A stretch of 64,000 nt of DNA from an uncultured Pseudomonadota bacterium (GTDB lineage Bacteria; Myxococcota_A; UBA796; SXON01). The notes under the pieces are model-generated. The model was not told the DNA's origin and did no database searches. It worked only from the letters and a program-made list of their open reading frames with translations. Position numbers and translations under genes: made by a program. Of the stretch, positions 3,609 to 9,995 are shown in pieces (the first letter of the stretch is position 1; every line of letters begins with the position of its first letter). Location of the stretch: NCBI GenBank assembly GCA_903844155.1, contig CAIMSU010000113.1, positions 1 through 64,000 on the forward strand, written 5' to 3'.

Positions 3609-5117
3609 CTACTTCTTCGGCTTGTCCTTGGTGTCCTTCGGGTCCGCGGGCAGCAGCTTTTTCGCCGCGTCGGTGAGGGTATCCGTCGTCTTCTTCGCGT
3701 CTCCGGCCGTCTTCGCGCCCCTGGTCACGGCGTCCTTCGCGGCCTTCGCGGCATCCGTCACTTTGGATGGGTCCTGCAACGCCTTGGTCGGATCCGCGAC
3801 GATGGCCTGCACGTCGCCCACGACCTTCTTCGCGTCCTTGCCCATGACCTGGGCCTGCTTCGCCGCAGCCTTCGCGCTGTCCAGCGCAGCCTGGGCCTGC
3901 GCGACCACCTTTTGCGCGTCCTCCACCGTCATCGCCTTGACGTTCGTCAGCAGCGGGGCCCCATCGGCGAGCAGCGCGGTCACCGCGGCGCCGGGTGGCG
4001 GCCGATAGGCGGCGGATGGCTTGGGTTTCGTCGTGTGCGTCACCCCAACCTTCGCGACCTCCTCCACCGACACCGCGGCCTGCACCTTCTGCTTCTCAGG
4101 AACCTCGCCTGCGGACGCCGATTCCACCTGCACTTCGCGGGCGCGCATGTTCTGCTCGTCCATGCTCCGCTGGACGGCGGCCTCGTCGTCCGTCCCGTCA
4201 AACGTGCTTCCAAGCCGCGCGAGGGCGGGGGCGAGGCGGTGCTGCTCGGCCAGGAATTGCAGCGTGGTGACGGCTTCATCGCGCGTGCCGAGCGACCACG
4301 CCGTCTGCACGTTGTCGATGCGGTTGCAGATCCAGGCGAGGTGGAGGAAGCGGCCGGGCATCTCCGGCACGTCCAACACCCGTCGGATGCGATCGACGTT
4401 CTCGTCGCGGGCGGCGTTCGCGTTGTTGCTACCAGCCGCGGAGAGGGCCTGGAGCGGGCGGGTGAAGCCAGGGAGCAGGCCGGACGCTGAATCGGCGGGC
4501 CGGGCGCCAGCGTCGATCTCGACGAGCAGCACACCGCGCGTGCGCAGGACGTCGAGGAGCTGTTGGGCGAGGGCGGCCTGGGGTTCGGCATCGGGGCTGC
4601 CCGACGAGCCTTCGCCGGCGGTCAGGGAGAGGCGGCCGAACAGCTCGGCCAGCGTGTCGATGCCGGTGTTGTCGACGATGCCGCCGTCGAGGAGGTCGAC
4701 GGCGTCGGCCGGGCTACCTCCGGGGACGTGCACGACATCAAAGCCCCAGGGGAAGTTTGCGGAGAGCCGCGCAGCCTGTCCCCCCGTGACCCACTCCTTG
4801 CCTTGCTCGTCGTCCATCGCGCCGACGGCGTCGCCAAACAGGCCGTGTGGCAGCCGGGGCAGGCCGATGACGTAGCGACTGCCGCTGTCCACCTCCGTCG
4901 AGTTGTAGAGCACCAGCGGGCCGCCGGGCGCGGAGCCCGGTGCGTTGTCGAGGTCCGCGAGGCCAAAACGCGTGGTCCAGAGGCGGGTGAGCGCCTCTCC
5001 GCGGCTGATGTCGGGCTCAACCACCGCGCGCAGGACGGCCGCCATGAAGTCGGTGCCCATGTCGTCGACAAAACCGCTGTGCTCCAGCCAGGGCGCCTCG
5101 GCCAGCGGCGTGGCTGG
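3609..5117 (-). pseudogene. C-terminal half of amber-split patatin-like phospholipase
   Basis: In the same frame as the upstream coding sequence, separated from it only by a TAG at 5118-5120. It supplies the second half of a patatin/cPLA2-like domain. SRGEALTRLW lies about 20 residues after the ATG at 5058-5060, and LLDGGIVDNTG carries the catalytic Asp (about residue 125 from that ATG). The last 110 residues form an Ala/Lys-rich, probably helical tail (repeated AK, DAAKAAKD, ending PKK), like linker-histone tails. The ATG at 5060 has no recognisable ribosome binding site, and homologous sequence continues upstream of it to the TAG. Independent translation is therefore doubtful. The catalytic Ser lies on the other fragment. 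Confidence 0.7.
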
Positions 5118-6419
5118 CTACCCGGCGAGCTGCCCATCTACCGCCACGAAGTTGTAAAACAGCGCCTTTTGGATGGGGTTCTGCCCGAAGCGGCGCGTGG
5201 CCTCCTTCACGAGCCGGGTGGACTCGATCTGCAGCGCCTGCCCCATCGCCTTGGTCGGCACGTTCCGCCACTGATCGCGCACCGGCAGGGCGCCGTCCTT
5301 GGCGATCGCCCGCTGGAAGTAGGCGCTGGCCAGGCTGCCGCCCGAGACAGAGCTGATCAGCAGGATGTGGGAGCCGACGGTCGGCGACTTCGGGTCTTCC
5401 GTGAGGTGCGTGGCTTCCAACGCCTCATACGTGAGCGCCGCGAACAGCGCCGCGCGCGAGCCCCCGCCGCTCGCCGCGACGAGGACCACGGGGCCGTCTC
5501 CAGGCATCGCGGCGACCCGAGCGAGCATTTGCTTGTACCAGCCCTCGCTCTCGTTGGTGCTCGCCTGTCCGCCGGGGCCTGCCTGCGCGATCGTGTCGGA
5601 TGCGTCGCCGCCCATGATCGCGAGCGCGCCCGCGGCCGCAATCATGCGGATCGGCCAGGCGGTGCGGAGCGCAGCAGCGTCCACGAGCCGACCCACCACC
5701 GCAGCCAGGAACACGAGGAAGCCCACGCCCCAAACGGTGTAGGACTGCGTTCCCCAGGAGCCGTGGGACCAGATTGGCAGCGCCCAGAGGGCCTCGCCAA
5801 GGAGCGCCAGGCTGGCGACGACGATGAGGAGCCGCCCGGGCACGCGCCACCCCCAGCTCAACTGCGCCGGATCGCGGACGGCGGCCACGGGGAGGAGCGC
5901 GACCCAGGCCCCAAAGCACGCGGTCATGATGCCCGGCCACGAGCTGGCAAAGTCGGCGGTGTCGTGACGGGCGGCGATGGCCTCGGGGCCGCCGAACCAC
6001 GCAATCATCAGCCCGAGAACCATGATGAGTACGCCCACGACCCGGCGCCCGCCATCGGAGAAGCGTGCGAGGACGCCCAGGACGGCGTTGGAGAAGAACT
6101 GCGAGCGTTGCAGGGCCCAGAGTTGGACCCGGGCCAGAGGGCCGGTCGGCGGTGCGTCCGGCTGCAGCTTCGGGTCGGGCGGAATCACCACCAGGTAGAG
6201 CAGCACGTAGGCGAGCGCCATGCCGACGAACGCGGCGGTGCGCAGCAGCGTCCCGGAGGGGTCGTAGGGGTACTCGTCGAGCCCGGCCTTGGCGAGGATT
6301 GCGCCGGTCTGCGGGACAAGGAAGAGCGTGGCCAGCACGGAGCCGGTGGCGACGACAGTGGCGGCGTACGCGTTGAAGAAACGGAGGGCAGCGTTCTCGG
6401 CTGAGATGGGGGTGGGCAT
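5118..6419 (-). CDS. Membrane patatin-like phospholipase, N-terminal part (ends at in-frame TAG)
   Basis: 433 residues from the ATG at 6419 (MPTPISAENAALRFF). About seven hydrophobic segments fill residues 13-280. The first half of a patatin-like lipid acyl hydrolase follows: an oxyanion glycine loop ASGGGSRAAL (about 317-326) and the nucleophile elbow SSVSGGS with Ser about 359. The reading ends in a TAG at 5118-5120, yet the same frame continues with the rest of the domain, including the catalytic Asp. The full open frame would be 936 codons before the stop at 3609. Either the gene is inactivated by a recent nonsense change, there is a base error, or the stop is read through. Several nearby genes end in TAG, so TAG is a normal stop here. 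Confidence 0.75.
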   Translation of the reverse strand: MPTPISAENAALRFFNAYAATVVATGSVLATLFLVPQTGAILAKAGLDEYPYDPSGTLLRTAAFVGMALAYVLLYLVVIPPDPKLQPDAPPTGPLARVQLWALQRSQFFSNAVLGVLARFSDGGRRVVGVLIMVLGLMIAWFGGPEAIAARHDTADFASSWPGIMTACFGAWVALLPVAAVRDPAQLSWGWRVPGRLLIVVASLALLGEALWALPIWSHGSWGTQSYTVWGVGFLVFLAAVVGRLVDAAALRTAWPIRMIAAAGALAIMGGDASDTIAQAGPGGQASTNESEGWYKQMLARVAAMPGDGPVVLVAASGGGSRAALFAALTYEALEATHLTEDPKSPTVGSHILLISSVSGGSLASAYFQRAIAKDGALPVRDQWRNVPTKAMGQALQIESTRLVKEATRRFGQNPIQKALFYNFVAVDGQLAG

Positions 6420-6540
6420 GGCCGGGGATTGTACACATTTCGCGGCGGATTGCAGCCCCGCGGCCCCGGATTGGCGTTCGGGCGCCTGCGTCACGTGCCC
6501 CCGCGTTTCATGATAGCGCGCGCTCCCATCTGGAGTCCCC

Positions 6541-7188
6541 ATGTTCCGCCCCGCTCTCTCCGCCCTGGCCCTCGCCGTGCTGAGCTCCGGGTGCGCCGCC
6601 GGCACCGTGAAGGGAAAGGTCCAGGATGAAACGGTCCCCGGCATGTCCCAGGGCCTTTGGGCGTCGGTAGACATCGCCGGCACGCTCGGCATCGAGATCG
6701 CCACCACGAACGTGCCCAAGGCCTGCGACACGTTCACCGCAGTCTACCAGGCCCAGGCGGACGCGCTGAAACAGTACCTCCAGGACTTCAACTCCACCAA
6801 GGCTCAGGCCGCTTATGAGGCGTCTGAGCAGGACAATCTTCCCGAGGAATACTGGACGATGCAGTTCTCGGTGACGGCCGACAGCGTCGGCTCCGCCCCC
6901 GGCGACTACAAATTCAATGACCCGGGCAACTCCTTCGTTGTCAGTCACGTCACCGGCTACACGGACTGGAGCCACTACTTCAGCGACGGCACCGCGAACG
7001 CGCAGTCAACGACGAGCGCCGCCAACGCCGGCACCGGCACCATCGAGTCCATCGAGACGGACAAGGCCGCCAGCGCCGATGGCGACGCCGACATGATCGA
7101 CGAGGCCGGCGAGTCGGCCGGGTCCATCACCTTCAAGATGGACGGCGACTTCTGCCAGGGCATCAGCGACCTGCTCTCGGGGAACTAG
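6541..7188 (+). CDS. Predicted lipoprotein, unknown function
   Basis: A 215-residue protein with a lipoprotein signal (MFRPALSALALAVLSSGCA; Cys18), so an envelope lipoprotein. The mature part is acidic and rich in Asp, Ala, Thr and Ser, without a family I recognise. It contains a Cys pair (ACDTF and DFCQG) that could form a disulfide. GGAG lies 5-8 bases before the ATG. Its TAG stop shares the palindrome CTAG (7185-7188) with the TAG stop of the convergent permease gene, so the two genes meet without any spacer. Confidence 0.75.
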   Translation: MFRPALSALALAVLSSGCAAGTVKGKVQDETVPGMSQGLWASVDIAGTLGIEIATTNVPKACDTFTAVYQAQADALKQYLQDFNSTKAQAAYEASEQDNLPEEYWTMQFSVTADSVGSAPGDYKFNDPGNSFVVSHVTGYTDWSHYFSDGTANAQSTTSAANAGTGTIESIETDKAASADGDADMIDEAGESAGSITFKMDGDFCQGISDLLSGN

Positions 7189-8612
7189 CCCGCGCCAAGC
7201 TCGTCATACTCGATGGGAACTGCGCCCGTCGGATGGTCCTTCTTCACGAACTTGACGAGGAACGGGTAGAGGATCGGCCCCGTGGCGATGGCCGCGGCGG
7301 ACATCAGCATGGCGGTGGCGCCCCCATCGTCAGTCGCGGTGCTGTAGACCGCCAGGGCGAGGACGGCCGCGGGCAATGCAGTGACGACCGCGATTCCGAA
7401 CCAGCCGCCCGGAACCCGCACTGGCCGCTTCATCGTCGGCTCCTTGTACCGGAGCGCGATGAGCGCCGCGAATTCCAGCATCAACGAGGCCGAGTACACG
7501 ATGACGTCGACGACGACGAGGCTTGAGAACGCGGAGAGCGTGAAGAAGCTGTAGACGGTCGCGCAGAGGATGATCGCGACGTAGGGCGTGTCGTACTTGG
7601 GGTGGCGTTTGGTGATGAATGATGGGAGAAAGCGGTCTTCTGCCATCACGTAGGGAAGGCGGGAGATGGAGAGCATGAGCGCGTTGAAGAGCGCCGCGGC
7701 CGAGACCAGCCCGCCGATCGCCAGCCAGGTCCCAAGCCATTGGCCGCCCACCTTCGCCGCGACGGTCGGAAAATATCCCGCGGTCCAACCAGCCCAATCG
7801 GGCGAAGCCTGCAGGCCTGCGCCGACAGGCAGGAGATACGCGAGGGTGACGAGCGGGATCGTGAGCGCCAGCCCGCGCGGGAAGTTGCGGCGCGGCTCGT
7901 GGATCTCGTCCGAGACCGTCGAAAGGCCGTCCCAACCGAGGTAGTTCCACATCACGACGCACAAGCCCGTCCCGAAGCTGCCAAGGATCGTGCTGTCCTC
8001 CGGGACGAACGGCGCCCAGAACTCCGACGGGCTGGTGATCGCCGAAGACAGGCCGATGACGCCCATGACGCCAAACGGAATGAGGACGAACGCGCCGAAG
8101 TAATTGGACCACTTTCCCACGCCCTTCGCGCCCCGAATGTTCACGAAGACGAAGGTCCAGATCACGACCAGCGTCACGAGCCAGTGGGCCAGCCAGTTCT
8201 CCTCCAGGAGGTGGTTGTCGAACTGCTGCACGAGCAACGTGTTGAGATAGTCGGCGAACAACACCGGGTAGATCGCCATGTCGACGAAGCTGGTGATCCA
8301 GCTCCACCACCCCTCCTGGAACCCCCAGAAGGGGCCCAGCGCCTTCTTCACCCACGCGTAGTACCCGCCCGCCACTGGCATCGCCGTCGAGAGCTCCGCC
8401 ACCATCAACGCGGTCGGCAGGCTCCAGATGATCGGCGTCACGATGATGAGCAGCAGCGCCATGCCCGGCCCGCTCTGGCCGACGAGGTCTTCGAGTCCGT
8501 ACGCGCCGCCGGACACGGTGAAGAACATCACCATGACGAGCGGGAGCAACGTCAGTTTACGACCGGGGGAGGCTGGGAGTTGGCCCTCCTCGGGGTGCTT
8601 GGGATCGCTCAT
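7185..8612 (-). CDS. APC-superfamily amino acid/polyamine permease
   Basis: A 475-residue secondary transporter with about 12 membrane segments. TM1 carries the family unwound-helix glycine region (FFTVSGGAYGLEDLVG). The next helices contain PTALMVAELSTAMPVAGGYYAWV, the typical APC signature before TM3. Such proteins take up amino acids or polyamines by proton coupling or exchange. Its ATG overlaps the stop of the PotD-like binding-protein gene (ATGA, 8609-8612), so translation is coupled. That gives a periplasmic binding protein paired with a secondary carrier rather than an ABC permease. No ABC ATPase or ABC membrane gene is adjacent. The substrate is probably a polyamine or amino acid, inferred from both families. 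Confidence 0.9.
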   Translation of the reverse strand: MSDPKHPEEGQLPASPGRKLTLLPLVMVMFFTVSGGAYGLEDLVGQSGPGMALLLIIVTPIIWSLPTALMVAELSTAMPVAGGYYAWVKKALGPFWGFQEGWWSWITSFVDMAIYPVLFADYLNTLLVQQFDNHLLEENWLAHWLVTLVVIWTFVFVNIRGAKGVGKWSNYFGAFVLIPFGVMGVIGLSSAITSPSEFWAPFVPEDSTILGSFGTGLCVVMWNYLGWDGLSTVSDEIHEPRRNFPRGLALTIPLVTLAYLLPVGAGLQASPDWAGWTAGYFPTVAAKVGGQWLGTWLAIGGLVSAAALFNALMLSISRLPYVMAEDRFLPSFITKRHPKYDTPYVAIILCATVYSFFTLSAFSSLVVVDVIVYSASLMLEFAALIALRYKEPTMKRPVRVPGGWFGIAVVTALPAAVLALAVYSTATDDGGATAMLMSAAAIATGPILYPFLVKFVKKDHPTGAVPIEYDELGAG

Positions 8613-9859
8613 TTGGGGCTCCCGGTGGGCGAGGGGCCGGGCGCGACGGCCGGCGCGTCAGGGGTGGGGACGGGAGCGTCGGTCGGCGGCGTGGGTGCGG
8701 GCGGCGCAGGGGGCGGAGGCGACGGATTCGGGGCGTGCGCGGCGGCGATCGCGGCCCAGACCGCCTCGTAGTGCGCCTGGGCGACGGGGCCGATGTTCTT
8801 GACGGGCACCGCGCCGGAGAGGGCGTCCATCTGCGGGTTGGAGACCGGGTCGTTGACGTACGCCTTCCAGCGTTCGGCGTCGTGCGCCTTCAACGCCGGC
8901 GCGGCCGCCTCGTTCGGCGTCGAGAACGGGAGATCGTCGATGACGGCGGCGCCAGCATCGGCGCTGAGCAGGTAGTTGATGAGCGCCTCGGCAGCTTCGG
9001 GGTGGGGCGCACCCGCGGGGATCGCGAGGTTGTCGAACCAGATCCCGGCGCCGTCGGACGGGAGCACGTAGATGAGCGCGGGATTGTCGCGCCGTGCGAG
9101 GACCGCGTTTCCGTTGAAGACCGCAGCGATCGTCGCCCGCTGCTCTGGCGGGAACGCGGCGAGGAAGTAGTGTTCGGGCGTGTTCGCGTCCAGCGCCACG
9201 GCATTCTTCGCCAGCGCAGCCAGTTTTTGGCCCGCAGCGTCGATGTGGGCGGGGTCCGTGTCGTTCTTGGAGTGGCCGTCGGCGAGGAGCGCGATGCCGA
9301 GTGCCTCGCGGGGGTCGTCGGGGAGCACGACGTGGCCTGCGTAGGCAGGGTTCCAGAGGTCCGCCCATTTGGTGGGGGCGGGGTTGATCACGGTGGGGTC
9401 GTAGAGGATGCCGGTCGTTCCCCAGAGCCACGGCAGGCTGAACTTCTCGTTCTTCTCGTGGCCGCGGCCGGCCTGGGCGATGCCTCCCGGGTCAAAGTAC
9501 GGGGAAAGGAAGCTTGGCGCTATGTTGTCGTAGTTGGGGATCTTCGGCAGATCGAGGGGGTGGAGGGCGTCCGCGGCGATGAGGACATCGACCGCGTAGT
9601 CGCTGGGCATGACGAGATCGTAGGCGTTCGGGCTGGATTTCAGCTTGGCGAGGAGCTCCTCGTTGGTGTCGTAGGTCTGCACGTCGACCTTGGCCCCGCT
9701 GGTCTTCTGGAAGTCCTCCCAGAGCCCGGGCGGTACGGAGTCTGCGAAGACGTACGCGTGGAGGGTGGTCCCGGCGAGGGGCGGCGCCGTGGTGCCACAA
9801 GCCGGCGCGAGGAGTACGCCGGAGAGCAGTGGGAGCGCGACGGCGGAGGCGGCGAGCAC
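8609..9859 (-). CDS. PotD-like (spermidine/putrescine-type) solute-binding protein
   Basis: A 416-residue extracytoplasmic binding protein. The N-terminus is a lipoprotein-type signal (GTG start, LLSGVLLAPACG; Cys about 21). The fold is recognisable from NEELLAKLKSSPNAYDLVMPSDYAVDVLI and NIAPSFLSPYFDPGG, as in PotD. Family members bind polyamines and normally deliver them to PotABC. The last 40 residues are a Pro/Ala/Thr-rich tail, unusual for PotD, which may act as a spacer across the envelope. It overlaps the APC permease gene by 4 bases. In frame, upstream of the GTG, there is no better start before the STN-domain gene. Confidence 0.85.
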   Translation of the reverse strand: MLAASAVALPLLSGVLLAPACGTTAPPLAGTTLHAYVFADSVPPGLWEDFQKTSGAKVDVQTYDTNEELLAKLKSSPNAYDLVMPSDYAVDVLIAADALHPLDLPKIPNYDNIAPSFLSPYFDPGGIAQAGRGHEKNEKFSLPWLWGTTGILYDPTVINPAPTKWADLWNPAYAGHVVLPDDPREALGIALLADGHSKNDTDPAHIDAAGQKLAALAKNAVALDANTPEHYFLAAFPPEQRATIAAVFNGNAVLARRDNPALIYVLPSDGAGIWFDNLAIPAGAPHPEAAEALINYLLSADAGAAVIDDLPFSTPNEAAAPALKAHDAERWKAYVNDPVSNPQMDALSGAVPVKNIGPVAQAHYEAVWAAIAAAHAPNPSPPPPAPPAPTPPTDAPVPTPDAPAVAPGPSPTGSPK

Positions 9860-9995
9860 CCAGGGGTCGGTAGGTGCGGGGGCGCGCGTTGCGCGCGAGG
9901 GAACTGGGCAGCGTGGAATGCCGGCCTCCGGAGGGAAGCGCGAGCGTACGGGAGGGCGCCCGCGTAGTCAAGCCGCCACGACAACAAACGACCGG

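Follow-up and report, generated by a model that had tools for sequence, protein, structure and literature searches.

A PotD-like lipoprotein gene overlapping an APC-family permease gene: a candidate binding-protein-assisted polyamine importer

In the window analysed here, by which we mean the whole stretch of 64,000 nucleotides, a gene for a PotD-like substrate-binding lipoprotein (SBP) overlaps the gene of an APC-family permease, and this pair of the co-transcribed type is real. Our best reading of the pair, held with moderate confidence and built on sequence comparison, is that it would encode an SBP-assisted, APC-type polyamine importer of the LeuT fold. The features on which this reading draws are as follows.

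7185–8612, minus strand: APC-family permease gene, 475 aa (AA_permease_2, 172 bits, cut-off 27)
8609–8612, minus strand: ATGA overlap of SBP stop and permease start, shared by all five relatives that have an SBP orthologue
8609–9919, minus strand: PotD-like substrate-binding lipoprotein gene, 436 aa read from ATT (from GTG, 8609–9859, 416 aa)
8612–8731, minus strand: Pro/Ala-rich tail of the SBP, not conserved
9443–9487, minus strand: basic insert region of the SBP, within residues 125–139 (GTG numbering), specific to directly APC-paired SBPs
9797–9799, minus strand: codon of the putatively lipidated Cys, residue 21 from GTG, aligned with Cys in 15 of 16 rows of the SBP alignment
9917–9919, minus strand: proposed ATT start of the SBP, five of the six orthologues having ATT at the equivalent site and one (L051) having GTG
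9925–9929, minus strand: Shine-Dalgarno-like GGAGG, 5 nt before the ATT, read from the sequence

Both open reading frames and their overlap were found as the earlier note had described them. Across 38 genomes, comprising the window's own and its relatives, an SBP orthologue is present in six and the permease in seven (own genome counted in both), at identities of 56–65% and 77–85%, respectively, and all six SBP orthologues directly precede the permease with the ATGA overlap. Since the overlap is kept in 6/6 orthologue loci and other phyla show the linkage again, we consider the pairing to exceed chance; being found in five relatives and three Chloroflexota, it is also not confined to this genome, and the first refuting condition of the earlier note therefore fails. 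One genome (G006) retains the permease (77%) with no adjoining SBP, and a same-strand potABCD operon begins 1.4 kb downstream of it; the permease is therefore probably able to work alone. The claim that no ABC transporter genes lie nearby holds for the families tested, as the contig of the window (C113) contains no match to the ABC permease family PF00528 and no further match to PF13416 (SBP_bac_8). No polyamine genes were seen adjoining the pair within the window itself. One locus with the pair (L075, CALQBK020000001.1) is titled as a Bifidobacterium breve MAG, yet the pair falls among those of the window's family, so that the title looks wrong.

The SBP matches SBP_bac_8 (Pfam) at 95.7 bits, above the cut-off of 27, and scores 189.5 bits against the PotD equivalog NF007048, below its cut-off of 582. 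Sequence comparison with the PDB ranks E. coli PotD and relatives first (E about 1e-53), and the predicted model of the SBP (mean pLDDT 85.4) superimposes on 1pot with a TM-score of 0.90 on target length. The extent of the gene given earlier, 7185–9859 for the pair, stood in so far as the GTG-started frame is present, but the likelier start is the ATT at 9917–9919, from which a protein of 436 aa is probably translated. An ATT start with a Shine-Dalgarno-like motif is seen in the window and in L050, L052, L053 and L054, the motif lying about 6 bases upstream of the proposed start in most orthologues and being weak in L052. For L053 and L054, a start at any ATG, GTG or TTG would leave the signal peptide with an unusable length; L050 offers a single alternative, a TTG that precedes the Cys by nine codons. 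Isoleucine codons in both genes of all six loci comprise 225 ATC and 16 ATT, the five proposed starts counted in. An ATT start might keep translation of the coupled genes low or place it under the control of IF3; a non-canonical start codon under such control has precedent (PMC5472188). A TTGAC box upstream of the ATT, seen by eye in 4/6 loci, is kept as tentative because a consensus promoter scan gave no match. The lipobox of the window SBP, APAC, is weaker than that of most orthologues. The unusual Pro/Ala-rich tail is indeed present, but it is private to the window sequence, and a functional role for it was rejected, since all five close orthologues lack it.

Spermidine is contacted in PotD by E36, D168, E171, D257, W34, Y37, W229 and W255, and the scoop loop of PotC contacts PotD at W34, Y37, N213, W229, W255 and Y293, according to PMC11414716. 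We compared these positions (PotD numbering) between 16 ABC-type PotDs, E. coli included, and ten SBPs of the paired clade, namely nine directly paired ones and L198, a contig-end fragment in G379 that is nearly identical to a paired SBP and whose downstream neighbour lies beyond the contig end. Asp168, Glu171, Tyr85, Trp255 and Asp257 are kept in all ten, and position 36 is acidic in eight. Trp34, present in 16/16 ABC-type PotDs, is replaced by Phe in 10/10 paired-clade SBPs, Trp229 by Phe or Tyr in 10/10, and Tyr37, again kept in 16/16 ABC-type PotDs, by Ser in 6/10. We infer that the ligand would be an amine, bound with altered affinity or specificity. All ten paired-clade SBPs additionally carry 10–12 extra residues, mostly Gly, Arg and Lys, at PotD positions 119–125, an insert absent from all 16 ABC-type PotDs; in the model of the window SBP this region has low pLDDT (residues 124–133). 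The insert may dock onto the permease. The PotD interface residues 56, 58 and 212–222 did not separate paired from ABC-type SBPs.

For the permease, an AF2 model (mean pLDDT 84.7) has BasC, AdiC and y+LAT1 as best PDB matches and a LeuT-type APC fold, so that the AA_permease domain and, as far as the model goes, the fold place it in the APC superfamily. Against xCT it scores 103 bits (xCT chain). Against an AtPUT3 sequence confirmed at one residue only, Ile377, it has 35% identity over 442 aa (234 bits), and on this provisional comparison the PUT/PHS branch of polyamine uptake carriers may be its closest relative in sequence. Glu41 and Asp111 of the permease are invariant in 21/21 relatives and are shared by that AtPUT3 sequence, while the equivalent positions of xCT are not acidic. 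The plant PUT/RMV1 polyamine uptake transporters (PHS family, TCDB 2.A.3.12) would, going by that sequence, resemble the window permease in identity and in both acidic residues; they are not known to use a binding protein, unlike the window pair.

A scan with the permease alignment over the genomes of 84,980 species gave 143 relatives, with loci listed for 80 of them. Flanks of up to 4 kb, often ended by contig ends, contain a PotD-like SBP in 16 of these 80 loci and none in 64, among the matches listed. Within the 16, again among the matches listed, the SBP lies directly before the permease in eight (five close relatives and three Chloroflexota), four have the order permease–Usp–SBP, and four Chloroflexota loci have the SBP some 2 kb upstream of the permease, after potC in two. 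The directly paired Chloroflexota genes are separated by 8–9 bp in 3/3 loci. L138 and L150 were rejected as SBP–APC pairs since potC precedes the SBP, and L127 and L142 have the order SBP, regulator, carboxynorspermidine-synthase-like gene, APC. Both SBP arrangements have a Usp gene after the permease (L215, L216, L087, L089, L090), and a Pfam Usp match was confirmed for L216 and L222. Close permeases are rare, occurring in 23/377 genomes of the window's phylum (E 1e-60), in 5/400 of a Chloroflexota sample and in 2/396 of a sample around an Acidimicrobiia record (both E 1e-110). A control set of 30 PotD-like loci was read from 298 genomes sampled in a Chloroflexota class, 31 of which have a PotD-like match; potB or potC stood no more than 1.5 kb away in 22 of these loci, an APC gene in one (the known pair) and neither in seven.

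That the substrate is a polyamine is suggested chiefly by the putrescine-catabolism neighbours of the Chloroflexota pairs. In G377 and G379 the order, completed from separate readings of the loci with genes that a crude gene caller had overlooked, is aldehyde dehydrogenase, SBP, APC, Usp-like, putrescine aminotransferase-like, potA, potB, potC, potD, carboxynorspermidine-synthase-like and further aldehyde dehydrogenases; G378 has the same genes spread over two contigs. The aminotransferase-like gene scores 567.7 bits, below the NCBIfam cut-off of 612, and one dehydrogenase 683 bits, above the aminobutyraldehyde dehydrogenase cut-off of 615 (NCBIfam). A spermidine synthase gene stands at 2.5 kb from a related permease (L082) that has no SBP.

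A tree of 44 SBPs unites the directly paired ones in a single clade of ten rows (support 100/99), whose sister comprises Chloroflexota SBPs largely of the ABC type, and the SBPs of the permease–Usp–SBP loci form a separate clade (100/99). Forcing both sets into one clade was 52 log-likelihood units worse (p-AU 0.0013, 39 rows, five long-branch rows of the 44 having been dropped beforehand), a p-value that is less strict because the tested groups were named after the first tree had been seen. The permeases of both arrangements fall within one 17-row group of 104 (SH-aLRT 94), and a single clade for them is compatible with the data (p-AU 0.466, 36 of the 104 rows). These trees are most simply explained by two acquisitions of a PotD-family partner within one permease lineage; it is also possible that the linkage is ancestral to both sets and that the SBP was exchanged later. 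A second, independent recruitment by the same permease lineage would favour a functional pair. The SBPs of the permease–Usp–SBP set have neither the insert nor Trp34Phe, so the idea of docking through the insert would not extend to them.

We propose a model of two-gene, ATP-independent uptake of a polyamine, putatively putrescine- or spermidine-like. The periplasm-facing PotD-family lipoprotein would capture the polyamine, dock onto the PUT/PHS-like LeuT-fold carrier and hand the ligand over, and import by the carrier would be driven by a cation gradient. Both partners would be kept in step by translational coupling, and the SBP would presumably raise affinity and not be obligatory.

The chief weakness of this model is that the SBP might serve PotABC, because potABC coexists with the pair in all pair-carrying genomes whose context was examined (the window's own, G004, G017 and G377–G383). 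The SBP-less permease of G006, the 64 listed loci whose flanks lack an SBP and the absence of an SBP–permease fusion count against the model as well. Some ABC systems use several SBPs, and the SBP could accordingly be an accessory receptor for the PotABC of the same genome, with the permease a separate carrier co-expressed in a polyamine regulon. The Chloroflexota pairs, lying in the same cluster as potABCD, fit such an arrangement, and the segment 212–222, through which E. coli PotD contacts PotBC, cannot speak against docking of the SBP there because it varies even among ABC-type PotDs. We nevertheless regard an accessory receptor as unlikely, since the SBP overlaps or is closely packed with the permease in 9/9 directly paired loci, the scoop-loop contacts are changed (W34F and W229F/Y in every paired-clade SBP, Y37S in six of ten), and complete potABCD operons carry their own PotD. 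The last point holds for the window's own genome, where the search for a potABC locus proposed by the earlier note found potA, potB, potC and potD in a row on contig C268. As this is the only complete pot operon found, an ABC operon lacking PotD and awaiting this SBP was rejected, and the second refuting condition of the earlier note fails too. A second PotD-like match is present in G002, G010 and G012.

The other SBP_bac_8 matches of the own genome are a von Willebrand-like SBP protein, read by eye, and a maltose-type MalE–MalF fusion (L003, 178–2478, contig C232), a single 766-aa ORF that combines the SBP with an ABC permease. Another fusion, a 795-aa ORF at L195 (202–2589), combines a PotA-like ABC ATPase with a TOBE domain and an SBP_bac_8 domain, and so joins an ATPase to a normally extracytoplasmic binding protein.

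It is also conceivable, if rather improbable, that a PotD copy arose by duplication, came to lie next to the permease in a polyamine cluster and was then transferred together with it, without joint function. The ABC-type PotDs closest to the paired SBPs are indeed Chloroflexota ones from the same clusters, and the SBP has been lost in G006, but the overlap is kept and both genes are constrained in six genomes (permease 76–86% and SBP 55–63% identical to the window), and a second, separately derived SBP is linked to the same permease lineage. That SBP and permease-like protein act as a polyamine sensor, in parallel to PotD-like NspS, which acts with MbaA as such a sensor, is very improbable, as the two-gene unit contains neither a regulator nor a signalling domain, the analysis found no sensing output, and the permease has a full APC domain with invariant substrate-site-like residues. 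NspS–MbaA is named in PMC9993111.

The importer reading would add to a small group of systems. That APC carriers are not known to use binding proteins, as TRAP and TTT systems do, agrees with our literature search, which lay mostly outside subscription journals and yielded TRAP, TTT and, as an addition, TAXI–GltS, but no published SBP-using APC carrier. The pair resembles TRAP and TTT in combining an SBP with a membrane carrier, presumably ion-driven here, and differs in that the membrane partner is a single APC protein unrelated to their components. APC/LeuT transporters are rocking-bundle and not elevator-type. Before TAXI–GltS, no secondary families apart from TRAP and TTT were known to employ a soluble SBP, and an elevator mechanism was considered possibly necessary for SBP use, an idea that further classes would test (PMC12344293, 2025). 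If SBP-dependent, a non-elevator APC carrier would provide such a test. TAXI–GltS of Bordetella pertussis, described in the same source, is like the window pair in that an SBP is translationally coupled to a normally solitary secondary carrier at a locus without ABC or TRAP membrane genes; unlike it, TAXI–GltS combines a TAXI protein with a presumed elevator, GltS, for glutamate, where we find a PotD-family SBP, an APC-fold carrier and a presumed polyamine. TAXI–GltS also has known fusions, whereas no SBP–permease gene fusion was seen among the loci examined. With the spermidine ABC importer PotABCD, as described in PMC11414716, the pair shares the SBP fold and acidic ligand residues, and it differs in having neither ATPase nor ABC permeases and in the Trp34Phe and Trp229Phe/Tyr exchanges and basic insert of its SBP. 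If our reading is true, the plant-type polyamine carrier branch would be tied to bacterial polyamine scavenging.

Elsewhere in the window, two adjacent minus-strand ORFs (3609–5060 and 5118–6737) gave no Pfam match at 0.001 and appear by eye to be halves of one patatin-like protein, possibly separated by a frameshift or an assembly error.
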